DNA from: Crossaster papposus
Taxonomy: Eukaryota; Echinodermata; Asteroidea; Velatida; Solasteridae
Direction of reading: 5' to 3'
NCBI GenBank assembly: GCA_037893245.1
Contig: JBAIAA010000240.1
Span: forward strand, 496,001-560,000
DNA length: 64,000 nt
Position 1 is the first letter of the stretch. Each line of letters opens with the position of its first letter. The notes under the pieces were generated by a model. That model was not told where the DNA came from, searched no databases, and was given only the letters and a program-made list of their open reading frames with translations. Position numbers and translations under genes: made by a program. Positions 10,668 to 64,000 of this stretch are shown here, one piece after another.

Positions 10668-10668
10668 A

Positions 10669-10956
10669 TGTAACGTAGATTTCTCTGGGGTCGACTACAC
10701 ACACAAGAAGGACTCCTGACGCAAGTATTCCTCTATTTCCGGTGATTCTCTGCCGTTTATTGTGATCTCTTGCCAACCAAACATGGACTTCAAGCTCACA
10801 CAATCACGCGGTACCAGAACTGGTCAGAACCGGTTCGGCCGTTGCGCAATCCGAAGGCGGGTCGCCGGGGCGCACCAGCAGGAGCCACCTGGAGCGATCC
10901 CAACACCGTGGGACCGCTCCAGCGCCCTCTACCGCCCAACCGGCACGGGCGCTACA
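10669..10956 (-). repeat. 5' LTR (minus-strand element)
   Basis: 288 bp, identical by eye to 6632-6919, with TG...CA termini. It should carry the element's promoter. The gag frame is open through part of it but probably starts downstream at 10614. Confidence 0.9.
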
Positions 10957-41737: not shown

Positions 41738-42423
41738 TTTTACTAGATTCGCCTTTAAGAACTGGTAAAACGCTGCAAGTGTGTACAAAAGAATGTACTA
41801 CACGTAGAAGGCTCAAGTACACGTCCAAATGAGGTTTAGCAGAGGCCTGTTGTCGAGGCAGCTTGCATGGAAAGCACACAGGAACAGTGGTCATGCGACC
41901 ACACCAGCACTAGATGGTTGTGTCACTTCCTGGCCTACTTATTTAGTGGAATCTAAAACCACAAGGTTAACTAAAACAACCCACGCAAACACTCCCAAAG
42001 CCCTACATAAAAAAATAAAAAACTCCCAGATCCTGTTTCAAATGAAGTGTTGAATATAACTGGCTGTTGGATATTACTCGGTACCTAAATAAATTGTACA
42101 CTGTATAATTATATAATTTAGTTCAGTTTATCATCACCAATTAATTTATAGCCACGTTGGGCAAATACATTTGTCGTGCTACGTCAATTTTTACAAAGCA
42201 CCAGAAAAGATGTAAAGGCAGCAAGGGGTATTTCCCCATTACGCAGACCAGGCCAAATCAAGCCTATTCCACTTGATGTAAGATGGGGGGAGTAGCTTCA
42301 TCAGAAACCCCCCGAGAGAAAGGTATATGAAGTATCTCAATCCTTCTAAAGCAAAGTGCTGTTTGATATGTTATCCCTCTCCCACGGAAAGTCCAGTAGT
42401 AGGAAAAGGTGCCCAAAACACAG

Positions 42424-42430
42424 TATATAA
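42424..42430 (+). promoter_or_regulatory. TATA box candidate, MGN gene 1
   Basis: TATATAA 200 bp before the ATG. The same motif lies at the matching place in copies 2 (47571) and 4 (57772). Confidence 0.6.
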
Positions 42431-42623
42431 ACTTCAACAACCACCATACTCTTTTGAAAGGACCCCGAAATCATTTTGATATGTTCCATGCCGTCAATTG
42501 AATGTGAGCAAGTTGAATGTGAGCAAATAATACAGTCATTTCCCGAGTGGCGTTTTACAAGTTCACATCGACGCAAACACTCTCTAGAAAAGTTGCGGTT
42601 GTCCTCTTGATTTGACCAAAAAT

Positions 42624-44309
42624 ATGGGTAACTTCTTCAGTACTACAGAGACTGAGGAGCATGGTATGTCACTTTTTGTCTGATTTTTGTTTATCATGTA
42701 GATTTGCAGCGGAGTAATATTAACGCCTACATCACAAAAATGATGTGCATGCGGAGGGACTCGGCACAGTTCTTTGATGTAATTAAAGGAAAGTTTATTC
42801 CATTTGCATTTATAGGGTTTACGACCTGAGCTGTAGTCTGAAACATGAAATACAGATGGGTATTTTTTGTCTGTGAAATTGCGTTTAGACAAACAAAATC
42901 ACCTCTAATCGAGTGGACGCACTCTATTGTCGCCGCTGCGGGCGAATATAAAGCATATACTTAATCCATTATTGTCGAGTTGATGAACAAAACGTTACAG
43001 AAAGAGTGGCCCGTTGAATATTAAAACATGGCTCACCAATTTTGAAACTATTGAAGGTATCTCTGTAAACCCATCCTGGCCGATTCATGATTCATTGGGT
43101 GTGGAGACCGGTGAATCCGGTAAGTATAGGTTTTCTAATTAGATCTACAAACAGTAAACAATTGTTGTCAGTTGTGCATTTTTATCGTTTGAAGCAGCAA
43201 CAGTGTTCAACAATCTTAATTAATTATACTGATGAAATAGGGTTTTGGCTTCTATATACTTTGACGACTCTCTGCAGCGCCCGAAAAGTGGCCAAGTACA
43301 GATTCTAAATTCCCACTAGCAAAATTGTATGATGTCCCAAACGTGGATAACTCTTGTTTTGCGTCTTCCGCTAGTGTGCGTCGTTGCACTGCTTACGCGC
43401 GCCATTTTGCGGATTACAAACCACCTACACAAAGTAATTTTCAAAAATGTGCCTCTGAGACGCATCTCTGGAAATTACCTTTTTTAAAATTTTCGTCAAA
43501 ATGAGAGCATAGCTGACGGGAACAATTTTCTAGGAAGTTTAGTGTTAATAATATATGTACAATAAGTAAGCGTTTCAACAGTATTTTGATAGGTTACTTT
43601 TTGAATAGCTGTGAAAGCTATACTTTAGCTTTAAATCAATCATAACTAAAGACTGTTCAACGATTTTAGTGTCAACAATACAAATACGAATCCGGAGAAT
43701 TGGTTGCAAACACGTTTGGCCTTTAGAGCCTGAAGTAAAACGTCAATAAAAGGCTACGGATATTATGTTTATTAATTTCAGGTCCAATCATATTGGAATT
43801 ACAACCGGAACGAGTTACCCTGCAATATGGGGATACACGTACGTTTATGGTAAAATATCAAGCTAATTATCCTGTGACCATTGGTTTACACATTGAGACG
43901 GACCAGGGAATAACTTCCATTACCAAATCGGGACGCGAGAAATTTGCTCACTTTTCCTTCAACATTAAGAAAGCGACTCCTGGCCAGCACACTGGAACTT
44001 ACACAGTAACAATCGAGGAAACACGTCCTCGGATAATTGGTAACAGCCCAGATCCAGTGCAAGTGCAGTGGGAAATACATGTAAGTGGTGTTTTCCACAG
44101 AAGACCAAATTACTAAATTTAGTAGATTTGTTTCCTTTCTTTTAAAGTTGAGAATTTAGTACGTTGTTCAAACATTATCATTAACTTTAAAAATATCACT
44201 TTTACCACCATAGTCACGCAAAATTCGGAATATTTTTGACATATTGTACCTGCAAATATGTTTGGTCTTTTGCTTTTTTGTTAAGGTTCTTCCATTTTCC
44301 ACCGGTTAA
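42624..44309 (+). CDS. Array gene 1: myristoylation-motif N-terminus plus one Ig-like domain
   Basis: Exons: 42624-42663, 43057-43119, 43782-44080, 44286-44309; 141 aa, all GT-AG, phases 1,1,0. Exon 1 encodes MGNFFSTTETEEH, a fit to the N-myristoylation consensus (Gly2, Ser6). Exon 2 (63 bp, symmetric 1-1) encodes ISVNPSWPIHDSLGVETGES. Exon 3 is the domain (about residues 35-134): GPIILELQPE, strand B-like FMVKYQANYP, strand C-like VTIGLHIE, strand F/G-like HTGTYTVTIEE. This is the DxGxYxCx pattern of I-set Ig domains with Val in place of Cys. Exon 4 encodes VLPFSTG and stop. No signal peptide or membrane helix, so a cytosolic or membrane-anchored location is inferred. I recognise no named family. 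Fibronectin-III-like or other beta-sandwich folds are alternatives. Confidence 0.68.
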
Positions 44310-45369
44310 TGCTGTACTACGCATGGAAGGTGGCAACATAGGAACCCGAGCCCCATCCCCATCATGTCCTCTATCATGTCCGCCAACAGTACTTCAGCCA
44401 ATTGTTGAGTAAAATGTTCTAATAAGACTGTATTTACTATAGCGTTTGGTTTATATTTTAACGGTGTTTGCAGAACACAATGAGCATTTGTTTAATTAAA
44501 GTGACGCTATTGCCAAAAGATATACAATGTAGTAAGTATGTTTAATTGACACTTAGAGACATTTGTCTATATCTCAAGCTACTCAAAGTCAATTACGCTT
44601 ATAATAGGCGCGCCTTGTGGTTTAAATGTTTCGAGTTTCTTTCTTATCCTTTTCTATAATTACCTATACAAAGTTTGTTTCCATAGCCTGCTTATGTTGT
44701 TTGGAAATGAGAAGTCTGGATAAACATTATTGTTGTTTATAGCTTTACGACATTCCCAGATACAAGGATATTTAGAAGTGTAGTTCAGGCATTTTTTCCC
44801 AGATACAATATTTCTAATTGATCGCAGTAACATAAGCACAGTAACTTTAGCACTACCAATTATTTTTGTTTCTTTGTACCGGTTTCGCAATACGAACAAT
44901 CTGTTTTAATTGTACAGGTTTGGCAATACAAACGGAATTGTGACATCAACAAAGACAAACAAGTAAATAGGGCAACTATTGCCATAATAGACAACCAATT
45001 CAAATCATAAGTTATCTGAACAAGCGGTTAAAACACTTTGGAATATTTTCATTTATGAATAATTTGTGTTCCTTTTTATCTATTGCATTATACTTTATAA
45101 AACTGCTATAAATCATTTTCGGAAGTTGTTTTACGAACATTACGGTGTCTCTGGTTGGGAATAACAAAATAAAACGTGAGATGGGAAGCTTTGTCTCCGA
45201 GTATCTGGGCAGCTAGTTTTTGTCACTTCGTATCAGCAATGCTGTACTTCTAAACGTGTCTCAGCCTTTCGGGCTTTTGAGCCCTTAAGGCTCTGCCCAA
45301 TTGTAGAACTTCATGATTATTTAAACCCATACAAGTGTTTGATCAATTTTGTTCCATTTAAATTATTAG

Positions 45370-45543
45370 ATACAAACATTGAAACAATTAAGGAGGTCAT
45401 ATTAGATAAACATACATTAAATGTAGATGAAATTACAAACAATAACGTCTACAAATCCGTCAAAACCACAGAAAGAGATGAGCAGGATGGTGTTTTCTCA
45501 AAGACAATATCGTGTATAACTCGTCCATATGGAATGACACAAA
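45370..45543 (+). other. Exon-like block, copy in unit 2 (174 bp, phase 1-1)
   Basis: Open for 58 codons between an AG (TTAAATTATTAG) and a donor ACAAA|GTAAGC. It encodes TNIETIKEVILDKHTLNVDE, then ITNNNVYKSVKTTERDEQDG, then VFSKTIS. Unit 3 (51262) keeps the frame except for one base lost near the end, while units 1 and 4 are broken. It may be an old exon or part of a degraded mobile element. Confidence 0.35.
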
Positions 45544-46693
45544 GTAAGCATTTTTTAATGACTTGCATGGTATTTAACCAAAAAGGGTGAAGAACGCCCC
45601 TGTTTGGCAAGTTTGCACGGGGGCGGTGAACGTGACCTTTCTATTCATATGCACAAGTAGGATAACAATAGGCTCGACGGCGTAAACCGACGTGCCGGAT
45701 CAATAGGTCAAGTTGAAAGGTCGATCGACATTACATGTCTTTACAGCGCAATATTAATGGATGACAAGTTTAGGTTGGGAACAAAATCACCCCATATGCG
45801 ATATTTGTTGGATACAAAAAATGAGCGGCAGAACTTCTGGGGATAATTATTCCATTTCAGTAAACATTTTGACCCGTCCATTTCAGAATACTCTGTTGTA
45901 TAATTTGTCATTCTGGTAAAAGCCCCTATTGCAAAACAAACATGCGATATAGTTATATAATTATAATATAGTAAATAGGCTACGGTCCTTGACTTGTCCA
46001 CGAAACGGATTTGTGAGGAACTCTGACTTCTATATGTTCATGTAGTAAGAGAACTGAATATCTAACAACACACACAAAACTGACAATTGCACAAAAATAT
46101 TACGAGCTGCAAATCTAGACAACCTCACCGTAGAAAGCTTGTTGGTACTTCTTAGTCACGTATACATGTACGTGCTCTTTTAGTATGTGTAGACAACAAA
46201 TTCACAGGTCTTAAGGCACCGAGACAGGGAAGAAGAAATTAATGCTCTAAAACTACGGTTCTATCCACTGTTCCTAGACTAGACTATCCTAGACCTTTAT
46301 CCTGATTATTACATGTACATGGCATGTATCAGTACCTGCATAGCTGCAACCTAGTAATAATGTCAATGACAAACACAAGGTAGCAAATGGATCCACTCAA
46401 AATGTACAGGGATCATTCCTGGATTACTACGTGATCGAGACCAAAAGCACAATTGTAGGGCCTACAGAACATTTCAGGCCTCTGAACTTTACAGTTCAGG
46501 TTCATCCCGTGTGTGGTATATTCGACAGGCAATCATGCATCACTGATATAGTGCTTATAGAAACTTGAAATCAAGGCAGGTCTATCAGAAAAAAACACAA
46601 CACTATAGCTTCTTACTCTCCACACTTACAACGACACTCGCCGACAGGCCTGACACCCCTGACACCCATTCACACCGCCCAGAAACACTCTAC

Positions 46694-46874
46694 CTTTTCT
46701 ATAATCTTCCATGACCTGTGGGTTCTTGACCGTCATGTCGTCGTCTTTCTCACACGGTTCCCGTGCACGCGAAGCCGTCCCGGGTTTGCTTGCGAGCGGA
46801 GCCGCTACCTCCCCCGTGGCTTCAGGCCGAGCTTGCTGACCCGTGCCTGGTGTTGGAGTATCGCTGTCAGTCAT
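46694..46874 (-). CDS. MTDSD first exon, copy 2
   Basis: Same 181-bp length, start and phase-1 donor as copy 1. Changes include Q to R, and DI to EV, in the stretch QARPEATGEVAAPL. It is intact, but no matching downstream exon was seen in unit 2; the next exon may be the distant one at 39801-39916 or may be missing. Confidence 0.52.
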
Positions 46875-47570
46875 TTTTTTACTAGATTCGCCTTTAAGAA
46901 CTGGTAAAACGCTGCAAGTGTGTACAAAAGAAAGTACTACACGTAGAAGGCCCAAATACACGTCCAAATGAGGTTTAGCAGAGGCCTGTTGTCGAGGCAG
47001 CTTGCATAGAAAGCACACAGGAACAGTTATCATGCGACCACACCAGCACTAGATGCGTGTGTCACTTCCTGGCCCACTTATTTAGTGGAACCTAAAACCA
47101 CAAGGTTAACTAAAACAACCCACGCAAACTCCCAAGGTCGCACATAAAACCTACTAAAACTCCCAGACCCTGTTCTTCAAGAAGTGTTGAATGCAACTGG
47201 CTGTTGGATATTACTCGGTACATACATAAATTGTACACTGTATAATTATATAATTTAGTTCAGTTTATCATCACCAATTAATTTATAGTCACGTTGGGCA
47301 CACACATTCGTCGTGCTGCGTCATTTTTTACAAAGCACCAGAAAAGATGTAAAGGCAGCAAGGGGTATTTCCCCATTACGCAGACCAGGCCAAATCAAGC
47401 CTATTCCACTTGATGTAAGATGAGGGGAGTAGCTTCATCAGAAACCCCCTGAAACCCCCTGAGAGAAAGGTATATGAAGTATCTCAATCCTTCTAAAGCA
47501 AAGTGCTATTTGATATGTTATCCCTCTCTCACGGAAAGTCCAGTAGTAGGAAAAGGTGTCCAAAACGCAG

Positions 47571-47577
47571 TATATAA
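47571..47577 (+). promoter_or_regulatory. TATA box candidate, MGN gene 2
   Basis: TATATAA in the conserved position, but 872 bp before the ATG because a transposon lies between them. Confidence 0.5.
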
Positions 47578-47669
47578 ACCTCAACAACAACCATACCCTT
47601 TTGAAAGAACCCCGAAAACATTTTGATATGTTCCATGCCGTCAATTGAATGTGAGCAAGTTGAATGTTA

Positions 47670-48328
47670 GCCTTTAAACAAGGCCACATGTCTGATAGAC
47701 GCCGAGCGACTAAAAAGAGACTAATCGCGAACACCTGAGTGAACGCCGAGCGACTAAAAAGAGACTAGTCGCGAAAACCTGCCCAGACAAGTGGCCTTTA
47801 TCAATCTGGTTTGGATTTCTTATGTTAACCTTTGTTTCGACTGGAATTCGCTACCTATATGGTAGCGTCCAATCAGCGAACGTATCTCTGCGTGACGTCA
47901 GCTTATATTTGAGTTGGACTAGTTCATTTTACAAACAGGGAATGTCCAATCATGTCACTTACAATATTTAGCTCAAATCATTAGTTGCTTCCTAATTTAT
48001 TGCAATTTTGCATGTAAAATAGATTTAAATGTGATATCTTGTATTTATCATTCATATATTCAACTCAGAAGCAACATTTATTTACGTTTTTTTACCTTTT
48101 CTTACATGCTTTGATATTGAACGAATCACGAACGAAACCAACTGGGAGATCGCCGTTCTGATTGGGCGTATTGGCATGCTAATATGTATCTATGAATAAT
48201 TCATGCCGAGCAGTGAAACCTACATTGCAAAAGGCCTCGTGACGTTCGTCACTCGGTCGCGCGTTCACCCCCGGTATCTAGACTCATCTCAGCCGCTTAG
48301 CCAGAGTCACGAGGCCTTGTCAAAAGGC
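47670..48328. mobile_element. 659-bp DNA transposon/MITE in the leader of array gene 2
   Basis: Inverted ends GCCTTTAAACAAGGCC and GGCCTTGTCAAAAGGC, with TA on both sides. It is absent at the matching site of units 1 and 4, so it inserted after the duplication. It contains a direct repeat ACGCCGAGCGACTAAAAAG. TA flanks suggest a Tc1/mariner-type mechanism (inference). Confidence 0.8.
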
Positions 48329-48442
48329 TAGTTGAATGTGAGCAAATAATACAGTCATTTCCCGAGTGGCGTTTTACAAGTTCACATCGACGCAAACACT
48401 CTCTAGAAAAGTTGCGGTTGTCCTCTTGATTTGACGAAAAAT

Positions 48443-50194
48443 ATGGGTAACGGCAGTACTACAGAGACTGAGGAGCATGGTATGTCACTTTTTGTCTGAT
48501 TTTTGTTTATCATGTAGATTTGCAGCGGAGTAATATTAACGCCTACATCACAAAAATGATGTGCATGCGGAGGGACTCGGCAAAGTTCTTTGATGTAATT
48601 AAAGGAAAGTTTATTCCATTTGCATTTATAGGGTTTACGACCTGAGCTGTAGTCTGAAACATGAAATACAGATGGGTATTTTTTGTCTGTGAAATTGCGT
48701 TTAGACAAACAAAATCACCTCTAATCGAGTGGACGCACTCTATTGTCGCCACTGCGGGCGAATATAAAGCATATACTTAATCCATTATTGTCGAGTTGAT
48801 GAACAAAACGTTACAGAAAGAGTGGCCCGTTGAATATTAAAACATGGCTCACAAATTTTTAACTATTGAAGGTATCTCTGTAAACCCATCCTGGCCGATT
48901 CATGATTCATTGAGTGTGGAGACCGGTGAATCCGGTAAGTATAGGTTTTCTAATTAGATCTACAAACAGTAAACAATTGTTGTCAGTTGTGCATTTTTAT
49001 CGTTTGAAGCAGCAACAGTGTTCAACAATCTTAATTAATTATACTGATGAAATAGGGTTTTGCCTTCAAAAATTGCTGAGTCAAATTAAATTGCGCTTTG
49101 CTAGTAGAAATTTGGCTTCTATATACTTTGACGACTCTCTGCAGCGCCCGAAAAGTGGCCAAGTACAGATTCTAAATTCCCACTAGCAAAATTGTATGAT
49201 GCCCCAAACGTGGATAACTCTTGTTTTGCGTCTTCTGATAATGTGCGTCGTTGTAACGCTTACGCGCGCCATTTTGCGGATTACAAACTACCTAATACAA
49301 AAAGTAATATAAATTTCCAAAAATGTGCCTCTGAGACGCATCTTTGGAAATTACCTTTTTTTTTAATTTTCGTCAAAATGAGAGCATACCTGACGGGAAC
49401 AATTTTATAGGAAGTTTCGTGTTAATAATATATGTACAATAAGTAAGCGTTTCAACAGTATTTTGATAGGTTACTTTTTGAATAGCTGTGAAAGGTATAC
49501 CTCAGCTTTAAATCAATCATAATTAAGGACTGTTCAACGATCTATAAGTGTCAACAATACAAATACGAATCCGGAGAATTGGTTGCAAACACGTTTGGCC
49601 TTTAGAGCCTGAAGTAAAACGTCAATAAAAGGCTACGGATATTATGTTTATTAATTTCAGGTCCAATCATATTGGAATTACAACCGGAACGGGGCAGAGT
49701 TATCCTGCAAGATGGGGATATACGTACGTTTAGGGTAAAATATCAAGCTAATTATCCTGTGACCATTGGTTTACACATTGAGACGGACCAGGGAATAACT
49801 ACCTATACCGAATCGGAACGCGAGAAATTTGCTCACTTTTCCTTCAACATTAAGAAAGCGACTCCTGGCCAGCACACTGGAACTTACACAGTAACAATCG
49901 AGGAAACACGTCCTCGGATAATTGGTAACAGCCCAGATCCAGTGCAAGTGCAGTGGGAAATACATGTAAGTGGTGTTTTCCACAGAAGACCAAATTACTA
50001 AATTTAGTAGATTTGTTTCCTTTCTTTTAAAGTTGAGAATTTAGTACGTTGTTCAAACATTATCATTAACTTTAAAAATATCACTTTTACCACCATAGTC
50101 ACGCAAAATTCGGAATATTTTTGACATATTGTACCTGCAAATATGTTTGGTCTTTTGCTTTTCTGTTAAGGTTCGTCCAATTTCCACCGGTTAA
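48443..50194 (+). CDS. Array gene 2: myristoylation-motif N-terminus plus one Ig-like domain
   Basis: Exons: 48443-48479, 48872-48934, 49661-49965, 50171-50194; 142 aa, same phases as gene 1. Exon 1 encodes MGNGSTTETEEH and still fits the N-myristoylation consensus (Gly2, Thr6). The Ig-like exon differs from gene 1 by a 6-bp in-frame insertion (ERGRVILQ against ERVTLQ) and nine base changes, all altering residues. They cluster in two patches: the N-terminal strands, and TTYTESERE against TSITKSGRE. From KFAHFSF onward the domain is identical. The last exon encodes VRPISTG. A transposon separates its TATA box from the ATG, so expression may differ from gene 1. Confidence 0.68.
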
Positions 50195-51255
50195 TGCTGT
50201 ACTACGCATGGACGGTGGCAAAATAGGAACCCGAGCCCCATCCCCATCATGTGCTCTATCATGTCCGCCAACAGTAATTCAGCCAATTGTAAAATGTTCT
50301 AATAAGACTGTATTTACTTTAGCGTTTGGTTTCTATTTTAACGGTGTTTGCAGAACACAATGAGCATTTGTTTAATTAAAGTGACGCTATTGCCAAAAGA
50401 TATACACTGTAGTAAGTATGTTTAATTGACACTTAGAGAAATTTTTCTATATCTCAAGCTACTCAAAGTCAATTACGCTTATAAAAGGCGCGCCTTGTGG
50501 TTTAAATGTTTCGAGTTTCTTTCTTATCCTTTTCTATAATTACCTATACAAAGTTTGTTTCCATAGCCTGCTTATGTTGTTTGGAAATGAGAAGTCTGGA
50601 TAAACATTATTGTTGTTTATAGCTTTACGACATTCCCAGATACAAGAATATTTAGAAGTGTAGTTCAGGCATTTTTTCCCAGATACAATATTTCTAATTG
50701 ATCGCAGTAACATAAGCACAGTAACTTTAGCACTACAAATTATTTTTGTTTCTTTGTACCGGTTTCGCAATACGAACAATTTGTTTTAATTGTACAGGTT
50801 TGGCAATACAAACGGAATTGTGACATCAACAAAGACAAACAAGTGAATAGGGCAACTATTGCCATAATAGATAACAAACTTAAATCATAAGTTATCTGAA
50901 CAAGCGGTTGAAACACTTTAGAATATTTTTCATTTATTAATAATTTGTGTTCCTTTTTATCTATTGCATTATAGTTTATAAAACTGCTATACATCATTTT
51001 CGGAAGTTGTTTAAGAACATTACGGTGTCTGGGGTTGGGAATAACAAAATAAAACGTGAGATGGGAAACTTTGTCTCCGAGTATCTGGGCAGCTAGTTTT
51101 TGTCACTTCGTATCAGCAATGCTGTGCTTTTAAATTTGTCTCAGCCTTTCAGGTTTTCGAGCACTTAAGGTTCTGCCAAATCTGAATTGTAGAACTTCAT
51201 GATTAATTAAACCCGTAGGCCCTACTAGTGTTTGGTCGATTTTGTTTCATTTAAA

Positions 51256-51799
51256 TTATTAGATACAAACATTGAAACAATTAAGGAGGTAATAGATAAA
51301 CATACATTCAATGTAGATGAAATTACAAACAATAACGTCTACAAATTCATCAAAACCACAGAAAGAGATGAGCAGGATGGTGTTTTCTCAAAGACAATAT
51401 CGTGTATAACTGTCCATATGAAATGACACAAAGTAAGCATTTTGTAATGACTTGCATGGTATTTAACCAAAAAGGGTGAAGGACGCCCCTGTTTGGCAAG
51501 TTTGCACGGGGGCAGTGAACGTGACCTTTCCATTCATATGCACAAGTAGGGAACAATAGGCTCGACGGTGTAAACCGACGTGCCGGATCAATAGGTCAAG
51601 TTGAAAGGTCGATCTACATTACATGTCTTTGCACAGCAATATGGATGGATGAAAAGAATAAGTTCGGAAAGAAAATTATCCCTTATGCGATAATTGTTTG
51701 ATAAAAAAATGATTCAGTAAACATTTTGACCCGTCCATTTAAGAATACACTGTAGTATGGTTTGTCGTTCTGGTAAAAGCACCTATTGCAAAACAAAAA
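51256..51799. repeat. Tandem segmental array, unit 3 (truncated)
   Basis: Carries the ATACAAACATTGAA block and the conserved block (GGCAAGTTTGCACGGGGG near 51496), then switches near 51.8 kb to sequence matching 61.12 kb. The MTDSD exon and MGN gene are missing from this unit. Confidence 0.7.
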
Positions 51800-51955
51800 C
51801 AAAACAAAAACAATTACATATTAATGAAAAACAACAATTACAGCATGAAACCTCAAAATCTTACTAATTTCGGCCATTCTACCTGCCATCGAAACCTGAA
51901 GTGCCAACAACTAATGATAAATATTCATATAAGCATTTTAGTGTTTTTCATACAG

Positions 51956-52018
51956 GTTTTTCCTTTGGAGAGGACTTTCACAACTAGAGCCAGAGACCCC
52001 TTTCTTTTCTTAATTTAG
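51956..52018 (+). pseudogene. Orphan last exon of a truncated Ig-like array gene
   Basis: Acceptor TTTTTCATACAG then VFPLERTFTTRARDPF and a stop. The matching place at 61260 is the terminal exon of the type-2 gene. No Ig-like exon precedes it here because unit 3 is deleted, so it is probably a remnant. Confidence 0.5.
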
Positions 52019-53466
52019 AACTTGATCACGAACCCCTTCTTTTCAATCATGAGAACTTGCAGTTGTAATATGTGCGATAAGCATGTAAACTTTAATTACA
52101 AATACTACTTTGATGCTTTCCGGCGTCATTTGAGGATCTAACGCCAAAATTGTTCTGTATTTAATACATATCCAGATGTAGCCAACACATTGGAACATTA
52201 ACAAAAATAGTTTTCCCAAAGCACGTAACATCCGAGCAGAACAAACTATTTCACTAAAAGTATGAATAACCATGAAGCGGTAATATAAAATATGTACATG
52301 TACATACATGTAGTATTCCTTGATATTTGGACAATACTTTTATCTAATGGCATTCGGCGTGCACGTACAACCTTCTAGCGGTTTTCCCTGTTTATCTGCA
52401 TACGTTGTACTCAGTTAACAATTCGTACATTTTTTTTATAGGTAAATGAGGTGTCTGGTTTGGAACTTATGACATAAAACAGTGAAATGCGAATCGTATA
52501 ACTCGGTGTCATTATCTGTGCATCGGTCAGATGCAGTTTTTTAAAGTTGGGGATTAAACTCTTCAATCTTTCCCAATCCACTGTTTTGACTTTCGACGCA
52601 ATATTTGCAATAGTGAAAAGACATTTTACGACTTCATCCCAATATGGGCAATTCTGTATACTAATTCTGTACCACTGCAATGATATAATTTTACGTTCAT
52701 GTATTTACACAACTGATCTAATTTGCAAATACGTCATGTTACATATTATGTCTTCTTATTTGTATCAATTAAAAGCCAGCAGAATGACTCAAATTGCATT
52801 TAAAGTCCCCTAAAGCCCAACATTCCGCTAAACCGTGTCAACACCGTCTTTAGTACATGATTGCTTCATTCCCTGTACTTGATTGTCTCTGGTTTTTTAA
52901 TGAACAAACCCCTTGCAAATTCCGCAGAAGAAAACTGTTACTGCTGCCTGAATTGCAACATGCATGCGAGAAAGAAACACCATGGCAAAACACAAACTAA
53001 AGTGCGGCACATTAATTAAAAAATCCAATACTGCCATGACCGACCCATTCTCAGTGCCTGATGACGGCAACCTGATCACGGCAGTGTGTGGACGCTGACG
53101 TGTCAACACACAACAGGCTGTAACACAAAATTGTGACAGCTACCAAAGAAAATAGTGCGTGGTGGGTAACAGACGTTGTAGCCTCTATGTTATAAGTTGG
53201 CTAAGCTAAAACACAGACAGAAATCCTAGCAGATCAATAAATTGGTAGAACGAATATGACGAAATATTTCTGTAAAAAGAGGACAACCAAACAAATGTTT
53301 ATCCAATCCTGAAAAGAAGGTATTCCCCGTTCATTTATAGAATGACATCAGGCAACTGTGACGTACTGTTATGTGGGCCTATAGTATCAATATGGTAATT
53401 GAGACTGGTTGCGGGTCAAATATTATTGCACACGTGAGCTTAAAAAGGTCTGGCCACAGTCCTTCC

Positions 53467-53475
53467 TATTTATAG
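53467..53475 (+). promoter_or_regulatory. TATA-like box, array gene 3
   Basis: TATTTATAG 195 bp before the ATG, conserved at 62924 in the duplicate. The spacing equals that of the MGN genes. Confidence 0.5.
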
Positions 53476-53661
53476 TCGGGTACATGTACCATATAAGCAT
53501 AAAACAGAAGAAGCAACACAAAAGCAGAGCCACAGAGCCGGACAGTGAAAGCATTGAACACAGTGGCTTGTTGCGGGCGAAGGAAAACGAATCGCAGTAA
53601 AATCATAAGACGTTTGTTAGACATCGCACGAGTGCTAAAAAGGCAAGAACCAAACACCAGC

Positions 53662-54802
53662 ATGGCAGTGTCGCAAGATACCGAAGAAGGGTGGCTAGTG
53701 GAATTTCCCGAGGAACGAACCCACCCGTACCCGTACGGACGTGACGTCGTAGAAAAAGGTAAGGCTCGCCAAATAATTTAGAGTGAATTATAAAATGTTG
53801 ATGCTGATTTTGAAACATCCAGGACCAGGAATCGAACAACAGAAATTTAGATTGAATCTTATCAACTGAAAATATGTTATTCAGTATTCAGTTAACTAGA
53901 AAAAAAAGGCCTTTTCACACACACACAAACATACCACAACTGCTACGGCTTTTTGTGACAGGTGACTGAATTTTAACGTGTGCTACTACATTTACTCTCC
54001 AAGTATCACAAAGGTCACAAGTTTCGACAATGTATGTACAGTAGTAGTGTCATCCAGCACAATAACCTCTCCCCAACACACGCAAGTGTGTATTTACCCC
54101 CAATGTGGGATCCTAACCCGTAACCCATTTGTCCTTTTTGGAAGACCTCCCATATGTTTTGCACACGAATGGCAATCGGGGAACCTATTGTCCTTTATTG
54201 TTGAATAAGGATAAAACTTTTGCAAACTGCTTACTGGCTGGAATGACCTGAAATATACAAATAAGAGGGCCTTTATTGTTCAACGTCCTCTATTTAAATG
54301 CGGAAACAAACTCGCACATACCAAAATGTTGTTGCCGGGTTCCTTAGAAGTTAATGACGAGTACAGCCACAAGTTAGTCACAGTTCTTAACAGGACCAGT
54401 GCGAGTAGTACCAGAGACTTCTGGTTTGACTTGTGAGTGGATGACTTGGGATAGACTTAAAAGGGCTCGAGAGGAGTCAATCACAACAATGCTTTCTTCT
54501 CTCCCGTAGGACCATGGGTCGACGATTTGCACGACAAAGAGAAGACCACCTACAAGAAGGTGGTCCTCTGTGTCGAATACGGGGCCAACAACCCGGTCAC
54601 CATCACCTGGCGCGCCGACGGCAGGGTACTGGCGAGGAGGACGAATCGAGTCCGGCAGTCAAGCACCTCTCTCAGGCTGAGCAAGCGGTGGCTAATGCAG
54701 AATACCGATAGCACCTACAAAGTCACCGTGAAGGACCAGGAGATTGGGAGGATTTATTCAGTCAATCCCATGAGTAGTTTCTGCAGAATCAGCATCGAAT
54801 AA
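53662..54802 (+). CDS. Array gene 3 (type 3): MAVSQ N-terminus plus one Ig-like domain
   Basis: Exons: 53662-53758 and 54510-54802; 129 aa. Exon 1 encodes MAVSQDTEEGWLVEFPEERT and ends in phase 1, like the other members. An upstream in-frame extension has no ATG. The domain exon begins GPWVDDLHDKEKTTYKK, then VVLCVEYGANNPVTITWRAD, the clearest Ig match: a B-strand Cys followed 13 residues later by the C-strand Trp. The F-strand is TYKVTVKD, with Val where Cys should be, so no canonical disulfide can form. The stop lies in this exon; a likely 3' UTR intron follows (TTACAG|GTGAGC to TTTTGCAG at about 55271). No signal peptide, myristoylation motif or membrane helix. Confidence 0.65.
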
Positions 54803-55599
54803 GATTACTAAAGCATACCAACTAACCTTACAGGTGAGCATTGCATCCTTCCCGAAGTATAATCCATTTGCACGAAATATCAAGTGACATCTACTCTATA
54901 CATGTATTCAGTTTCGAACACAATCTTTAGTCAACAAGACTAGTACTAGCTTCCCTGAATCATATAAATCAAATGTACTATCGATAATGCTCGGGACTCA
55001 ACCATCCGGGAACTAATACAAGAATCCACCATTAACTTCCATAATAACCACAAAGAAATTGGTTACAACTTTTCCACAATCAACAATAAAGGGTTCCCTT
55101 GTAGGCATTAGCAGGAGAGCATCTCGAACAACAGTGTCCAAATTGTGTCCTATTTTTTCAAATACTGTTAAGAGGGTTGCGCTAAATGAAGTGGAAAATG
55201 TAAATGCTCTTTATAAGATTTCTCGCATTTCATGATCTTTACATCTTTCTGTTTCTCTAAATTTTTGCAGATGAAGACTTTGGTGCATGTATTTGAAATG
55301 TCATCCGCGAGATCATCGAGAGCCTTATGAAGTATGAAGTTCTACCAAGTGTCACCTAAAACAATGCCACCTGGCGTGTTTTATTTTGTTTTCCATAACT
55401 TATAATACAAGGTACCTGTTATAAACAGGTAATTTATAAAGTCCCAATGACATTGTTAATACATGTATACAAAGGTGTTTGACTGTACATATATATACTT
55501 TGCTAATCTGTATAATATTGAATTCTACAAGGACCGAGAGTAAAGAGCTAATTATAATTATACCTAAACAAAATTAATGGAGTTCCTTCTTTAACGTAT
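54803..55599. other. 3' part of array gene 3 and spacer
   Basis: Probable UTR intron (54836-55270), then a possible 3' UTR exon starting ATGAAGACTTTGGTGC. No other coding signal. Confidence 0.4.
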
Positions 55600-56884
55600 T
55601 TTTACATCGAGTAAGTTTTGAACAATAATTCGGTTGGTTAATTTTAGAATAATTTTAAAAGGTTTACTATCCCTTTAAAATGATTCGATACAAACATTGA
55701 ACCAATTAAGGTGGACACAGGTAAACATAAATAGATGAAAATAAAAACAGTAACGTCTATAAATGCATCAAAACCACAGAAAGGGTTGAGCAATATGGTG
55801 TTTTCCTTAGAACAATATTGCGAATAACAGTGTGGCCCACATGGAAAGATACAAACATTTTCCTAAATGACTTGCATGGGACAACCAACAAAGTTGTAAG
55901 GCGCCCTCACTTGGCAAGTTTGCACGGGGGCGGTGAACGTGATCTTTCTATTCATATGCACAAGTAGGAGAACAATAGACTCGACGGTGTAAACCGACGT
56001 GCCGGATCAATAGGTCAAGTTGAAAGGTCGATCGACATTACATGTCTTTACAGCGCAATATGGATGGATGACAAGTTTAGGTTCGGAAAGAAAATCACCC
56101 CATATGCGATAATAATGTAGAAGCACCTATTGCAAAACAAACATGCAAACTAATTACATAATTCTACAATAGGCTACGGTCCTTGACTTGTCCACGAAAC
56201 TGATTTATGAGGAACTCTGACTTCTATTATGCCCATGGAGTAAGAGAACTGAATATCTAAGCACACACAAAAACGGACAATTGCACAACAATTTTACGAG
56301 CTGCAAATCTAGAAAACCTCAATGAAGAAAGCTTGTTGGTACTTCTTACTCACGTAGATGTATTGTACCGGTATGGTACGTGCTCTTTTAATATGTGGAG
56401 ACCACAAATTCACAGGTCTTAAGCCACCGAGACAGGGAAGAAGTAATTAATGCTCTAAAACTATACGGTTCTATTCATTGTTCATAGACCTTGATCCTGA
56501 TTATTACATGTACATGGCGTGTATACCTGCATAGCTGCAACCTAATAATGTCAATGACAAACACAAGGTGGCAAATAGATCCACTCAAAATTTACAGGGA
56601 TAATCCATGGATTACTACATGATCGAGACCAGAAAAGCAAAAAGCTGCAAACAATTGTACAGAACATTTCAGGCCTCTGAACTTTGCAGTTCAGTTTCAC
56701 CCAGTGTGTGGTATATTCGGCAGGCAATCATGCACCACTGCTATAGTGCTTACAGAAACTTAAAATCAAGGCAGGTCTATCAGAAAAAAACCCACAACAC
56801 TATAGCTTCTTACTCTCAACAACGACACTCGCCGACAGGCCTGACACCCCTGACACCCATTCACACCGCCTAGAAACACTCTAC

Positions 56885-57065
56885 CTTTTCTATAATCTTC
56901 CATGACCTGTGGGTTCTTGACCGTCATGCCGTCGTCTTTCTCACACGGTTCCCGTGCACGTGAAGCCGTCCCGGGTTTGCTTGCGAGCGGAGCCGCTACG
57001 TCCCCCGTGGCTTCAGGCCGAGCTTGCTGACCCGTGCCCGGTGTTGGAGTATCGCTGTTAGTCAT
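56885..57065 (-). CDS. MTDSD first exon, copy 3
   Basis: Intact 181-bp copy starting MTNSDTPTPGTGQQARPEAT, with the same phase-1 donor. D to N at residue 3 and D to G near the end (CEKDDGMTV) set it apart. No matching downstream exon was seen nearby. Confidence 0.5.
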
Positions 57066-57771
57066 TTTTTACTAGATTCGCCTTTAAGAACTGGTAAAAC
57101 GCTGCAAGTGTGTACAACAAGAATGTACTACACGTAGAAGGCTCAAGTACACGTCCAAATGAGGTTTAGCAGAGGCCTGTTGTCGAGGCAGCTTGCATAG
57201 AAAGCACACAGGAACAGTGATCATGCGACCACACCAGTACTAGATGCGTGTGTCACTTCCTGGCCTACTTATTTAGTGGAATCTAAAACCACAAGGTTAA
57301 CTAAAACAACCCACGCAAACACTCCCCAGGTCCCACATAAAACCTATTAAAACTTTCAGATCCTGTTCTTAAAGAAGTGTTTCAATTGAAGTGTTGAATG
57401 CAACTGGCTGTTGGATATTACTCGGTACATACATAAATTGTACACTGTATAATTATGTAATTTAGTTCAGTTTATCATCACCAATTAAATTTATAGCCAC
57501 GTTGGGCACACACATTCGTCGTGCTGCGTCAATTTTTACAAAGCACCAGAAAAGATGTAAAGGCAGCAAGGGGTATTTCCCCATTACGCAGACCAGGACA
57601 AATCAAGCCTATTCCACTTGATGTAAGTTGAGGGGAGTAGCTTCATCAGAAACCACCTAAGAGAAAAAGTATATGAAATATCTCAATCCTTCTAAAGCAA
57701 AGTGCTATTTGATATGTTATCCCTCTCTCACGGGAAGTCCAGTAGTATAGGAGAAGGTGTCCAAAACGCAG

Positions 57772-57778
57772 TATATAA
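57772..57778 (+). promoter_or_regulatory. TATA box candidate, array gene 4
   Basis: TATATAA 194 bp before the ATG, in the same context as the other MGN genes. Confidence 0.55.
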
Positions 57779-57965
57779 ACCTCAACAACAACCTTGCTCT
57801 TTTGAAAGGACCCCGAAATCATTTTGATATGTTCCATGCCGTCAATTGAATGTGAATGTTGAATGTGAGCAAATAATACATTTCTCGAGTGGCGTTACAC
57901 AAGTTCACATCGACGCAAACACTCTCTAGAAAAGTTGCGGTTGTCCTCTTGATTTGACGAAAAAT

Positions 57966-59122
57966 ATGGGTAACCGCAGTTCTGATGGAGCTACTAAAGA
58001 GACCGAGGATAATGTCCATTTCCTCCCTCTGTGGCCCCTGCCCTCGTCTCGCCGCGGGGAGCCTACGGAGCAAGGTATGTCACTGACCGATATTTAAAGT
58101 CAGTTAAGTCTCAATATTTTGTCTCCGAAAAAAACACCATTCGGCATTGCCGTCCAAGAGATCTGTTTCTAGGCGAACACTATACTATAGAAAAAATGGC
58201 ATTGGGGTACAAACTTAGTTGGAAATACGCGTGTCCCTATGGATCAAAGCATTTAATGTGTTCTAACTTCCAGGTCCTGTTATAACCGAGTCCCCAAAAG
58301 ACGCGCACTTTCTGGTGGGCGATTGGGGCCAGTTTACGACGGCATACAAGGCCTCTAATGGTCCGGTACATATCACGGTCTCCGTGGAAGCTACGACCAG
58401 TGGAAAAAAGAGCCAGCCCTACTCTGAAGAAGTAAAGGAGAGGTGCGGAGTATTTTGCATGCGCATTAGCGAATTGTTGGAAGAGAACGCCGGCACCTAC
58501 ACCGTGGAAGTCAAAGACAAGAAACTCCGCCGTGCAAAAGCGACGTGGAAAGTTACAGTAAGTTACGTCTTGTCTTGCAATAGATCGACCAATTCAGCCC
58601 CCCCCCCACGACGTTATGGTTAATTACAGCTGTGATCAGTGATGCCCGAACCGTACGTAAGAGAGTCTGACATGCGTTCTCGAGCGTATTCGTACTCCTT
58701 ATGTGCAGTATGCAGGGATGTAGTCGAGTCCATCACAAGTCCCTGCAAGTCCATCACAAGTCCTTCAGTTCAAATTCAAATCACAAGCTATTCAAATCAG
58801 CTTTGACAAAGGCATTCCTTTGTCATTGTTCATCCAGTTACTTGTGACTGGCTTTATGAAGGGACTTGTGACTGGCTTCACGAAAGGACTTGGGAAGGAC
58901 TTGCAGGGACTCGACTACAACCCTGGCAGTATGTGGGGTGTTAGAGAGATGACCGTTGCTCACGTGGCTGGCGGTACTATACTGAGTCAGTCTAATATTA
59001 ATACACACACAAAGTAAATTGGTTCAATAAAAAACACAATTTTTAAACTTTTGTTGTTTTCTTCTTGTTTTTTATTCCAGGTGTCTCGACAAGCTGGAAT
59101 TTCGGGAAACAACTTTTTCTAA
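57966..59122 (+). CDS. Array gene 4: diverged MGN protein with one Ig-like domain
   Basis: Exons: 57966-58074, 58274-58557, 59081-59122; 144 aa, GT-AG, phases 1 and 0. Exon 1 encodes MGNRSSDGATKETEDN, which keeps the N-myristoylation consensus, then a Pro/Arg segment (PLWPLPSSRRGEPTEQ) in place of exon 2 of genes 1 and 2. The domain exon starts GPVITESPKDAHFLVGDWGQ, has ASNGPVHITVSVEA (B/C strands), and CMRISELLEENAGTYTVEVK, a strong I-set F-strand signature with Val for Cys. The last exon encodes VSRQAGISGNNFF. A possible AATAAA is at about 59425. The domain is far more diverged from genes 1 and 2 than the promoter is. Confidence 0.65.
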
Positions 59123-60283
59123 TCCGAGTTTTGACAACTTAACAAAACACCTATTACACTGATAGGCCTATGTTCTTTAAAAAAACTTATTTTTGTAAGG
59201 ACAAATATTTATCATTTGTACTTGGTATTCCCTGTAAAGGCACACTGAAAATGTATCCCCTTACTACATAAGACTTGATATCATCATTATTGTTTAAATG
59301 TAAAAGGTAAACTGGGACACTTTAAGCTCCGTCTAATAATGCACCCGTTAAAATAGTCGGAAGAGATTCAGTTACACGATCCTTTGTTTTATATGATTGG
59401 GGTATCTATTTTTTAAGGTAAGAGAATAAATATATGAGAATAAACTGATTTGCAAAACGAATTGTATTTATACTGTCACTGAATCTTTCCCTTTATTATT
59501 TTCTACGTTGAGTATCTGGATGGGATGGGGACCTCCATACCAAAATTGAACGACAAATTAAAAGTTACCATTTACCATGATCTTCCATTATTTCTTCCAT
59601 GCATAAATAAAACAGGGGTAAGTTTAATACTGAAACTTTATGCCGCAAATGGTTTTAAGTGAAATTGCATTATTTGGCCAGTAACGCTACTTCAATGTTG
59701 TGGACCAATTTCTTTCCCGACGCCCCGCACTAAATGCCATACAGTACGACATGAGACACAGCCCACATGTTGCCACACTCGGTTACAGGTTGACGCATTT
59801 TGTGAACCACTGGGTAAACGAGTGCATACTGCATTAGCGAATGGAAAATCACTGCAGATTTTCATAGACATAAAGCAATTCCATATTTGTGGGAGTGCCC
59901 GGTTTCTTTCGTGTGTAAATTTGCCGCGGAGTGATATTTGCGCCAAATCACAGAAATACTTTGCACTGTATCCGGTCACCGGTGGAATTATGAAAAGGGT
60001 TAATCCACAGTTTGATGTATAGATAGGATACGACCGAACTAAATTGATTTTTTTAAAAATCAGATACACTAAAATACCATTAAAATATCGCCTCAAATTT
60101 AAAGGGAAAAAAAATAGAAAAAAACAACAAAAACACGGACGCCCAGGTTTATGTGTCAAATTTTTAATATTATTCCATACGGGTGTTTCGTTGGTATTGA
60201 AATCGGGGATATTTTTTCTCTAAAACCTAAAAACGTACCCACAAACAAATGGGCGGACCCAATATAAAAAAAATATGCAAATG
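59123..60283. other. Spacer between array genes 4 and 5
   Basis: Around 59915-59970 it shows faint similarity to the first intron of gene 1 (GCGGAGTRATATT, CAAATCACAGAAAT), suggesting an ancient unit. No intact exon was recognised. Confidence 0.35.
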
Positions 60284-60291
60284 CATATAAA
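60284..60291 (+). promoter_or_regulatory. TATA box candidate, array gene 5
   Basis: CATATAAA 128 bp before the ATG of the type-2 gene. Confidence 0.4.
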
Positions 60292-60411
60292 CCGAGCCGG
60301 TCGTCGTTTTTCCATTTTTAAAGATGGTATGTCCGTGCTTTTAGGGGGAAAGTTTTGAGCATCAACTTACGACAATTTTCTGTTCATGACAATAAAGTTT
60401 TGAGACAAAAA

Positions 60412-61268
60412 ATGGCGGCTGGCAGTGTTGAAACATGGGACAGGATCACTTTGAACACGATGACACCGCTACCTAGTTCGACCACTATCGACAAAGAGGA
60501 GACAGGTAACATAAGTTCATTTTGTATTATACCAAGCCGAAACCAAGTTCTAAGAGCTATGAAAATATTATCTGTACCCTCTCTTGTTAGTAAACATGGG
60601 AGTGATATTCTGTCATATTTGCACGTCATTAGTCCACAAAGTGTCAATTCCACATTATAACCAATGTATTTTTACTTTCTCTTTACAATATTATGCAAAC
60701 ATATAAAGAGATATTCTTAGCTTTCAAGTTTTTCCCCTAACATTTTCAGACCCACTGATCCTCGATTCGCCACTAGACACACTTTTAGTGCATGGCATGG
60801 TACATACGTTTAAAGTTGCGTATCGGGCTCGCCATAAAGTGGTTATTGCTTTGAGCTTCAGAAACGGCACGCTATTCAACGGAAGCCCGAAGTTCGTTTA
60901 TTATCCAAGTAATGGTTACTTCTCCTTCAACATCAATGGAGCAAACAGTAGCATGGACAAGGGAACGTACACCGTAAAAATCTGGGACCCTTTACTTCCA
61001 GCACGAACGGGTGGCAATCCGGTCGAGGTATCATGGAATGTACGTATACATTGTACACAAGTACAGAATGTCACTCCCACAAATTAGAATAAAATCGATG
61101 TAGAAAAACCAATTACATAATTACATAAATAATTAAAAAAAACAATTACAGCATGAAACCTCAAAATATTACTAATCCTATCCATCCTACCTATCATATC
61201 GAACCTGAAGCGCCAACAGCTAATGATGATATTCATTTTGGATTTTTGTTTTTATACAGGTTTACTGA
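60412..61268 (+). CDS. Array gene 5 (type 2): MAAGS N-terminus plus one Ig-like domain
   Basis: Exons: 60412-60505, 60750-61039, 61260-61268; 130 aa, phases 1 and 0. Exon 1 encodes MAAGSVETWDRITLNTMTPL, then PSSTTIDKEET. There is no Gly2, so it is not a myristoylation substrate. The domain exon begins DPLILDSPLDTLLVHGMVHT, has FKVAYRARHKVVIALSFRN for the B/C strands, and DKGTYTVKIWD for the F strand, again with Val for Cys. It ends VEVSWN before a donor (AAT|GTACGT). The final exon (acceptor TTTTTATACAG) would add only Val-Tyr and a stop, and this short tail is the least certain part. A duplicate of the terminal exon survives at 51956. Confidence 0.58.
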
Positions 61269-62923
61269 GGGCTCGTCATTTGGGGAGGACTTTTACAACT
61301 ATAGCCAGAGACCACTTTCTTTTCTAAATTTAAAACTTTGATCACAAAGTCACAAACCCCTTCTTTTGTAAAACTGGACCCACGTAATTTCAATCATTTC
61401 AATCATGAGAACTTACAGTTGTAATGTATGCGATAAAAATGTAATACTTTAATTATAAATACTACCTTGACGTTATTTATTTAAGCTACGTTTAGGATTT
61501 GAAAAACAAATTTCCAGCTTTCCGACGTCATTTGAGGATCTAACGCCAAAATTGTTCCGTATTTAATACATATCCAGATGTAGCCAACACATTGAAGCAT
61601 TACACAATTCGTTTATGACATTATGTAGGTCTACCAGTTTAAACAGTTTTCCCAAAGCTCGTATCATCCGAGCAGAACAAAAGTATTTCACTAAAAACAT
61701 GAATATCCATGGAGCTATATTATTACATATTATGTACATACGTGTAATATTCTACGTGTAGATATTTGGACAATAGTCTTTACTATATCTAATGGCATTC
61801 GGTGTACACGTACAACCTTCCACATGTAGTGGTTTTCCCTGTTTATCTGCATACGTTGTACTCAGTTAACAATTCGTACATTTGTTTTAGGCTAATAAGG
61901 TGCCTGGTTTGGAACTTATGAAATAAAACAGAGAAACGAAAATCGTATGTCTCGGTGTCATTATCTGTGCATCAGTCAGATGCAGTTTTTGTTAAAGTTG
62001 GGGATTAAACTCTTTAATCTTTCCCAATTCACTGTTTCGACGCGGTATTTGCAATAGTGAAATGACATTTTAAGACTTCATCCCAATATGGGCGATTCTG
62101 TATACACTAATTCTGTACCACTGCAATGATATAATTTTACCTGGTCAAATGTCCATGTACTTACGCAACTGATCTATATTGCAAATACGTCATGTTACGT
62201 ATTATGTCTTCTTATTTGTATCAATTCAAAGCCAGCAGAATGACTCAAATTGCATTTAAAGTCCCCTAAAGCGCAACATTCCGCTAAACCGTGTCAACAC
62301 CGTCTTTAGTACACGATTGCTTCATTCCTTGTACTTGATTGTCTCTGTTTTTTTAAATGAACAAACCCCTTGCAAATTCCGCAGAAGAGAACTGTTACTG
62401 CTGCCTGAATTGCAACATGCATGCGAGAAAGAAACACCATGGCAAAACCCAAACTAAAGTGCGGCACATTAATTTAAAAATCCAATACTGCCACGACCGA
62501 CCCATTCTCAGTGCCTGATGACTGCAACCTGATCACGGCAGTGTGTGGACGCTGACGTGTCAACACACAACAGGCTGTAACACAAACATGTGACAGCTAC
62601 CAAAGAAAATAGTGCGTGGTGGGTAACAGACGTTGTAGCCTCTATGTTATAAGTTGGCTAAGCTGAAACAAAGACAAAAGTCCTAGCAGATCAATAAATT
62701 GGTAGAACGAATATGACGAAATATTCCTGTAAAAAGTGGACAACCAAACAAATGTTTATCCAATCCTGAAAAGAAGGTATTCCCCGTTCATTTATAGAAT
62801 GACATCAGACAACTGTGACGTACTGTTATGTGGGCCTATAGTATCAATGTGGTAATTGAGACTGGTTGCGGATCAAATATTATTGCACACGTGAGCTTAA
62901 AAAGGTCTGGCCACAGTCCTTCC

Positions 62924-62932
62924 TATTTATAG
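62924..62932 (+). promoter_or_regulatory. TATA-like box, array gene 6
   Basis: TATTTATAG 187 bp before the ATG, conserved with 53467. Confidence 0.5.
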
Positions 62933-63110
62933 TCGTGTACATGTACCATATAAACATGAAGCAGAAGAAGCAACACAGAAGCAGAGCCGGACAGTGAAAG
63001 CATTGAACACAGTGGCTTGTTGCGGGCGAAGGAAAACGAATCGCAGTAAAATCATAAGACGTTTGTTAGACATCTCACGAGTGCTAAGAAGGCAAGAACC
63101 AGACACCAGC

Positions 63111-64000
63111 ATGGCAGTGTTGCAAGATACCGAAGAAGGGTGGCAAGTGAAAATTCCCGGGAAACGAACCTGCCCGTACGTACATGACGTCGAAGAAAAT
63201 GGTAAGGCTCGCCAAATAATTTAGAGTGAATTATAAAATGTTGATGCTGATTTTGAGACCTGATCCAGGACCAGGAATCGAACGACAGACATTTAGATCA
63301 AATCTTGTCAACTGAAAATATGTTTTCACACACACACACAAACAAACACACTGTAGAGAAGAGCTCGCATAATTGCTAAGGCTTGTTGTGCCAGGTGACT
63401 GGATTTTATCGTGTGCTACTAACATTAACTCTCCAAGTACCACAAAGGTCACAAGTATCGACAATGTATGTAGTAGTGTCATCCAGCACTGGAACCTCTC
63501 CCCAACACACCCAAGTGTGTATTTACCCCCAATCGGGGACCCTAACCCCGAACTCTTTTTTTCTTCGGAAGACCTCCTATATGTTTTGCACACGAATGGC
63601 AATAGGGGAACATATTGTCCTTTATTGTTCAACGTCCTCTATTTAAATGCGGAAACAAACTCACACATACCAAAATGTTGTTGCCGGGTTCCTTAGAAGT
63701 TAATGACGAGTACAGCCACAAGTTAGTCACAGTTCTTAACAGGACCAGTGCGGGGACCATAGACTTCTGGTTTGACTTGTGAGTGGATGACTTGGGATAG
63801 ACTTTAAAGGGCTTGGGAGGAGTCAATCACAACAATGCTTCCTTCTCTCCCGTAGAACCATGGGTCGGCGAACTGAACGACAAAGCGAAGACCAACTACA
63901 ATCCGGTGGTCCTCCAGGTCGATTACGGGGCCAACAACCCGGTCACTATCACCTGGAGCGCCGACGGCAAGGTACTGGCGGAGAAGACGAATCGAGTCCG
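63111..64000 (+). CDS. Array gene 6 (type 3), cut by the window end
   Basis: Exons: 63111-63201 and 63856 to beyond 64000. Exon 1 encodes MAVLQDTEEGWQVKIPGKRT and ends phase 1. The domain exon starts EPWVGELNDKAKTNYN, then PVVLQVDYGANNPVTITWSA. Compared with gene 3, the B-strand Cys is Gln (TGT to CAG). Across the shared 48 codons I count many more residue changes than silent ones (about 15-16 changed codons against 2 silent), while the intron is nearly the same. The rest of the gene lies outside the window. Confidence 0.6.

Follow-up and report, generated by a model that had tools for sequence, protein, structure and literature searches.

A tandem array of genes for small single-domain immunoglobulin-type proteins in the sea star Crossaster papposus

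Organization of the array

The DNA analyzed here (the window) is a stretch of 64,000 nucleotides of Crossaster papposus (C240:496001-560000 of a 1.02-Gb assembly), which carries, between position 42624 and its right edge, a tandem row of small genes, each with a single domain of immunoglobulin (Ig) type. Coordinates follow the numbering of the window, and values above 64000 denote adjoining DNA of the same contig. When hmmsearch was run over all six frames of the window (1,655 segments) with a profile of six genes, it returned six homologous domain exons within 42624-64000, all on the plus strand; the next-best segment scored E = 1.7 with this profile and E = 1.3 with a profile of 13 genes. 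As a family profile is built from its own targets, pairwise BLAST of the domains served as an independent check, and it related A to D (3e-9), A to C (0.006) and E to F (2.5e-22), with A to E at only 0.07. The contig extends the row to 13 intact genes (A to M) over 41 kb of a single strand. The seven further genes (G, H, I, J, K, L and M), all open and on the plus strand, lie to the right of the window, up to position 83894; the family profile found no additional copy over 50 kb on the left side of the window or, on the right, at 84-154 kb (best 0.33). The initial annotation had described six genes or partial genes on one tandem, duplicated and divergent plan. The six same-strand exons lie where it had placed them, and the array is larger than proposed, with 13 genes rather than six. 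Gene F is not a partial gene; the window edge cuts it, and it is completed at 64154.

All 13 genes follow this plan in their first two exons. Exon 1 ends in phase 1 throughout, itself carries an in-frame ATG (13/13), and measures 37-109 nt in the six window genes. Exon 2 is a single domain of 89-101 amino acids (94-101 in the window genes), the first whole codon of which is for proline in every case. The short phase-1 first exon that had been noted in the window (6/6) is thus found in the extended row as well (13/13), as is the one domain exon of about 100 codons. All gene models splice in frame, with AG acceptors and GT donors; predicted frames and splice sites are intact in 13 of 13, and the products are 116-147 amino acids in size. 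Two elements are less uniform than had been suggested. The tiny last exon, thought to be usual, is found in A, B, C, D, G and H, and E, F and I to M lack it. In 12 of the 13 genes, a site of TATA type (TATAAA, TATATAA or TTTATAG) lies at most 230 nt upstream of a start codon, B being counted only by way of a second, internal start and J having none; by chance, TATAAA on its own is expected at about 0.2 per 260 bp of the window.

The window genes, all on the plus strand, are laid out as follows. Gene A has a first exon (MGNFFSTTETEEHG, 42624-42663) that ends in phase 1 and provides a candidate N-myristoylation start, a second exon with the single Ig-type domain of 99 amino acids (43782-44080), and a third with a tail of seven codons and a stop (44286-44309). 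Gene B has a first exon of MGN type (48443-48479), an alternative first exon (MAHKFLTIEG..., 48844-48934) that ends in phase 1 at a GTAAGT donor and has a TATA site 81 nt upstream, the domain exon (49661-49965) and a tail exon (50171-50194). In gene E, a MAV-type first exon (53662-53758) is followed by a domain exon that includes the stop (54510-54802). Gene C comprises an MGN-type first exon (57966-58074), the domain exon (58274-58557) and a tail exon (59081-59122), and gene D an MAA-type first exon (60412-60505), the domain exon (60750-61039) and a last exon that encodes only V-Y-stop (61260-61268). Gene F starts with a MAV-type exon (63111-63201), and its domain exon runs from 63856 to the window edge at 64000 and on to 64154. 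Between genes B and E, a segment at 51812-52029 (plus strand) matches 61119-61345, the last-exon region of gene D, at 81% by BLAST and is possibly the trace of a lost D-like gene.

Identity of the domain

Of the 12 domains scanned against Pfam (all but that of gene F), 10 matched an Ig family at E<=0.25, mostly below threshold. Gene M alone was above the cut-off (I-set, PF07679, 25.4 bits against 23.7, E 1.5e-5); examples from the other domains are C2-set_2 at 0.0023 (E), V-set at 0.009 (C) and ig at 0.00037 (K). Ten shuffled domains, two each of A to E, matched nothing in Pfam. In comparisons with the PDB, all 19 matches of the gene E domain were Ig-superfamily molecules, as were eight of the 14 matches of the gene C domain, with myomesin first. 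A profile of the 12 domains matched titin at E=4e-10 (for the whole chain, which contains several Ig repeats), followed by cardiac myosin-binding protein C at 0.0035; its further matches included titin, smooth-muscle myosin light-chain kinase (MLCK), twitchin and myotilin, the last three being weaker. The surface or secreted proteins UrIg2, LRIG1, Robo2, IgE, CEACAM1 and CD4 were matched also, more weakly than titin at its best. The Pfam and PDB matches of E, C, M and the profile support the Ig-type domain that the initial annotation had proposed, and on these matches we assign the array domain to the I-set type.

The filament proteins among these matches are all intracellular, and it is because of this sequence tie to cytoskeletal Ig domains that the main rival to the role in conflict discussed below is a telokin-like one. 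Array products would then be I-set domains, free or tethered to membranes, whose partners are actin, microtubules or motors and which compete against the large filament proteins, and their fast change would reflect relaxed constraint after duplication. The Ig domains of titin, myosin-binding protein C, MLCK, twitchin and myotilin belong, as modules, to giant or kinase proteins. The array is related to them at the level of sequence profiles, and differs from them in having one domain per gene and in forming a fast-changing tandem row. We know of no tandem array and no N-myristoylation for telokin or APEG-1. These two are described as single-Ig intracellular proteins that are portions of large muscle kinases (PMC1352370); they are small, with one I-set domain, and in APEG-1 the N-terminus is short and disordered (PMC1352370). 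The array products, with one domain per gene and no export signal by hydropathy, may be small cytosolic proteins of this sort. An intracellular Ig domain of a sea-cucumber receptor is reported to bind actin and fidgetin (PMC13133943). Against a telokin-like role, 13 divergent copies, dN/dS values near or above one and swaps of first exons would be unexpected in a structural protein, and no kinase was found in the eight window proteins scanned, most flanking open reading frames (ORFs) having only been looked at, whereas telokin and APEG-1 sit within muscle kinases. We regard this explanation as possible, although on balance doubtful.

Predicted location of the products

Hydropathy gave no signal peptide or membrane helix in any of the 13 products or in the MAH form of B, the highest values being 1.26 over 19 residues (K) and 1.60 over nine N-terminal residues (MAH form of B), in agreement with what had been claimed for the six window genes. 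The products of A, B, D, H and L are free of cysteine. The canonical cysteine pair of strands B and F is absent from the alignment of 12 domains, in which E has the B-strand cysteine only. Intracellular Ig domains are not dependent on this disulfide (PMC1352370), and the missing pair fits domains of this kind. A cytosolic location is thus predicted for the array products.

Many invertebrate immune Ig families are secreted or surface proteins, which would favor a family of that sort in which a signal-peptide exon had been missed. The absence of the B-F pair, the low hydropathy in 13 of 13 products, the in-frame ATG within every first exon and the TATA site that J alone lacks all speak against such an exon, and we consider it highly improbable.

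N-myristoylation follows a pattern in which an M-G start is combined with a small or polar residue at position 6. Five of the 13 products (A, B, C, G and J) show this pattern, and the other eight do not fit it: A, B and C start with MGN and have Ser or Thr at position 6, G reads MGNHSC and J reads MGQESC. These five carry a candidate signal, and their N-terminal glycine is probably myristoylated, so that "intracellular" may mean, for part of the family, bound to a membrane.

Exchange of 5' modules

A 5' module of gene A, composed of the promoter region and ATGGGTAAC (40560-42632, plus strand), is 90% identical by BLAST over 2.1 kb to a copy that lies upstream of gene C (55840-57974, plus strand), and the match stops nine nt into the coding sequence, at 42632. 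The match of the A and G modules (94% over 245 bp) ends at the same point. The module of gene B is shared further upstream only (45988-47671, 89%). From 42677 onward, gene A is instead 94% identical to H, in which the matching stretch begins past the place of the MGN exon and contains no such exon. An alternative first exon (MAHQFEAMEG...) is open in gene H, where it has both a TATA site and a GTAAGT donor in phase 1. The MAH exon is open in B and H; the copy in A (43028-43119, plus strand), as read from the sequence, is out of frame, with a stop after MAHQF. These matches are most simply read as the joining of a promoter and an MGN start to an H-type gene, which makes A and B chimaeras. In gene B, a 663-bp insertion (47668-48330) with near-matching inverted ends and a 9-bp target duplication (GTTGAATGT) lies between a TATA site (47571) and the MGN exon, and gene A shows the corresponding empty site. 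On this reading, the two genes would now depend on different starts.

Divergence among the copies

Seven overlapping comparisons of recent copies gave ratios of nonsynonymous to synonymous divergence (dN/dS) of 3.93, 1.27, 1.83, 0.99, 1.54, 1.40 and 1.39, the value of 1.54 being that of E/F with the full gene F. In four of the seven (A/B, A/H, B/H and E/F) dN was above the divergence of the introns. We pooled three overlapping sets of pairs and compared them with neutral simulation at the measured transition-to-transversion ratio of 0.95. The set B/H, C/G and E/F had 30 synonymous changes of 169 against 44.2 expected (P=0.006), and its subset B/H and E/F gave P=0.002; the set A/B, C/G and E/I had 18.2 of 96 against 25.2 expected (P=0.052). 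An excess of replacement was thus present in two of the three sets. Tallied over the recent-copy comparisons, indels were multiples of three in 10 of 10 cases in coding sequence and in 16 of 45 in introns. A hotspot of change between the modelled strands C and E, first seen in A/B/H (11/13 against 17/86), was then tested on C/G and found there too (10/16 against 14/78, P=0.0006); the strand names are tentative, because the structure models described below are of low confidence. The frames are held while the residues change, which points to selection that is neutral to diversifying, and we infer selection as the cause of the change.

Two further explanations bear on these values. The array might be decaying or weakly expressed, with duplicated exons in neutral drift and few of them functional. 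The dN/dS of about one in C/G would suit this, as would the out-of-frame MAH exon of A and the insertion that separates the upstream TATA of B from its MGN exon. Drift is difficult to reconcile with frames and splice sites that are intact in all 13 genes and with coding indels that keep the frame each time, and the chance that neutral substitution would leave A/B, C/G and E/I together without a stop is 0.03 before indels are counted; we judge decay improbable. The second is a family of gamete or embryo proteins that diversify through sexual conflict or species recognition. Tandem copies and raised dN/dS would fit reproduction as well as they fit immunity, although an apparent lack of export signals does not suit recognition at a surface, and a reproductive family also strikes us as improbable.

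Relatives of the family

Whole-genome queries with the domains of A, C, D, E, K, L and M, in which the best candidates were scored, produced matches that, among those listed, all lie in this cluster. No homologue was found among 5.8 billion proteins, in a search that needs shared words of five residues and limits length. A profile of five products, run against 562 protein candidates, matched none at E<=10; a query with the gene A protein gave two candidates and no homologue, and a search of viral contigs gave no relative of the array products. A protein search limited by words could miss fast-changing orthologues in Patiria, Asterias and Acanthaster. That these species are covered is shown by a control, an RDH8-like gene of the window (11.4-13.7 kb, minus strand, spliced by eye), which is 84% identical to its counterpart in Patiria miniata, 80% over 53% of the length in Acanthaster planci, and 58% in Asterias rubens. 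Patiria and Acanthaster both belong to the Valvatida, and by these identities the host is a sea star that probably falls in that order or close to it. We met no description of such a family in the open-licence literature searched, which accords with the earlier statement that no named family of this kind was known to its author. The Ig domain and single-Ig intracellular proteins such as telokin and APEG-1 are known; new within that literature is a tandem, fast-changing single-Ig family with exchangeable and possibly membrane-anchoring first exons.

Ig domains are also combined with NACHT domains in echinoderms, as in the sea-cucumber AjNLRC4, for which an Ig plus NACHT make-up is reported (PMC8699970). 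The genome of C. papposus contains at least 100 NACHT matches (422 first-look candidates, of which 100 were scored, all 100 above the cut-off). Many of them lie on few contigs, for example C164, C362, C428 and C697. At one of eight NACHT loci fetched (L042, G000:C684:953500-958100), a V-set Ig exon lies upstream of the NACHT exon, and this locus is a sea-star candidate for the sea-cucumber Ig-NACHT type. The array products could, by analogy with the CARD-only proteins that partner CARD receptors, be Ig-only partners or decoys of Ig-NACHT receptors through Ig-Ig contact. The abundance of NACHT matches and the arrangement at L042, which recalls AjNLRC4, are consistent with this. The family profile, however, found no matching segment at any of the eight loci (about 4 kb upstream of each, best E 1.3), and the sole Ig found there has an extracellular cysteine pattern, which makes such partnership very improbable. 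Within the array itself, the gene models stop with the Ig exon or with a tiny tail and have no NACHT domain in the same gene, and when segments of at least 60 amino acids from the window and the fetched flanks were scanned for the P-loop pattern, the one hit, at 113355, lay outside the array. AjNLRC4 and AjNLR-new share with the array an Ig domain, in their case in echinoderm coelomocyte defence, that of AjNLR-new being reported as intracellular (PMC13133943). They differ in being large, with NACHT and predicted membrane helices, whereas the array products consist of Ig only.

Neighboring features

Elsewhere in the window, an exon of an S28 serine carboxypeptidase lies at 20489-20827 (plus strand, E 3.5e-18) and a weak scramblase-like exon, below the cut-off, at 36153-36524 (minus strand). 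At 6632-10956, two identical direct repeats of 288 bp enclose one long minus-strand ORF of 1238 amino acids, which contains a C2H2 zinc finger and, slightly below threshold, a CCHC knuckle; this looks like a recent gag-only, non-autonomous long terminal repeat element. Two minisatellite-like arrays, recognized by overlapping self-matches and repetitive ORFs, are found at 30727-31245 and 32205-32623. A minus-strand ORF beginning with MTDSDTPTPGTGQQ is open in three duplicated copies (41737, about 46874 and 57065) and ends at what may be a phase-1 donor, as a divergent first exon would; the copy scanned had no Pfam match. We considered these MTDSDTPTPG ORFs as first exons of more Ig genes and rejected the idea, there being no Ig exon on the minus strand of the window.

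Proposed role

Taken as a whole, we read the array as a lineage-restricted tandem family of single-Ig proteins that would be cytosolic, diversifying and engaged in conflict, a reading to which we give somewhat less than an even chance. Copy number, change and location are the reasons for which we favor a role in conflict, as intracellular binding proteins between host and microbe or in another contest, and this role is itself a tentative proposal that falls rather short of even probability. A number of results weigh against the reading as a whole. The domains of B and D matched none of the Pfam Ig families, and the five PDB matches of the gene D domain included no Ig. Many of the closest sequence relatives are cytoskeletal Ig domains, which points to a telokin-like role. 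Structure prediction followed by a fold search had been suggested as a check. AlphaFold models of A and C were all-beta and of low confidence, too weak to establish the fold (predicted local distance difference test, pLDDT, 65 and 61); the fold search with both returned only generic beta-sandwich domains (glycoside hydrolase Ig-like, GOLD, Asf1 and others). The check speaks neither for nor against the I-set type, the assignment of which rests on sequence. As for selection, C/G had a dN/dS of 0.99, dN was not above intron divergence in C/G, E/I and F/I, and no single pair had dN significantly above dS (P 0.09-0.59). The hotspot was not seen in E/F/I (6/15 against 26/81, P=0.38), and the difference in variability between loops and strands was not significant (P=0.23 and 0.16). 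Finally, the exon chains of the gene models A to M were predicted solely from the DNA.

On the conflict reading, each gene would make, in the cytosol, a short N-terminal segment joined to one I-set-type domain. In A, B, C, G and J, a myristoylated glycine supplied by the first exon would keep the domain on the inner side of a membrane, whereas the other products and the MAH form of B would be free in the cytosol. Which promoter and first exon drive a given domain would then set its location, and genes would have exchanged this module through recombination within the first exon. The surface of the domain, and in two of the three subgroups mainly the stretch modelled between strands C and E, would vary from copy to copy with the frame kept, such that each copy might have its own target or decoy specificity in the conflict.

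Diversification by duplication, copy number or splicing is shared with SpTransformer, amphioxus VCBP, mollusc FREP and Dscam (PMC13428168); the array differs from these invertebrate immune families in having no apparent export signals. In its most specific form, which we consider unlikely and offer as a conjecture, our proposal is that of a repertoire of intracellular recognition proteins, diversified in the germline and with one Ig domain each, some N-myristoylated at membranes and others free, with location switched as modules of promoter and first exon are swapped or alternate; this would be a cytosolic counterpart of the extracellular Ig repertoires of animals. The Ig-bearing members of the families just named are secreted or surface proteins, and to our knowledge Ig domains in animal immunity act almost wholly outside cells. 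If the proposal is true, a diversified single-Ig family in the cytosol, tethered in part to membranes, would employ this fold in an unusual way.

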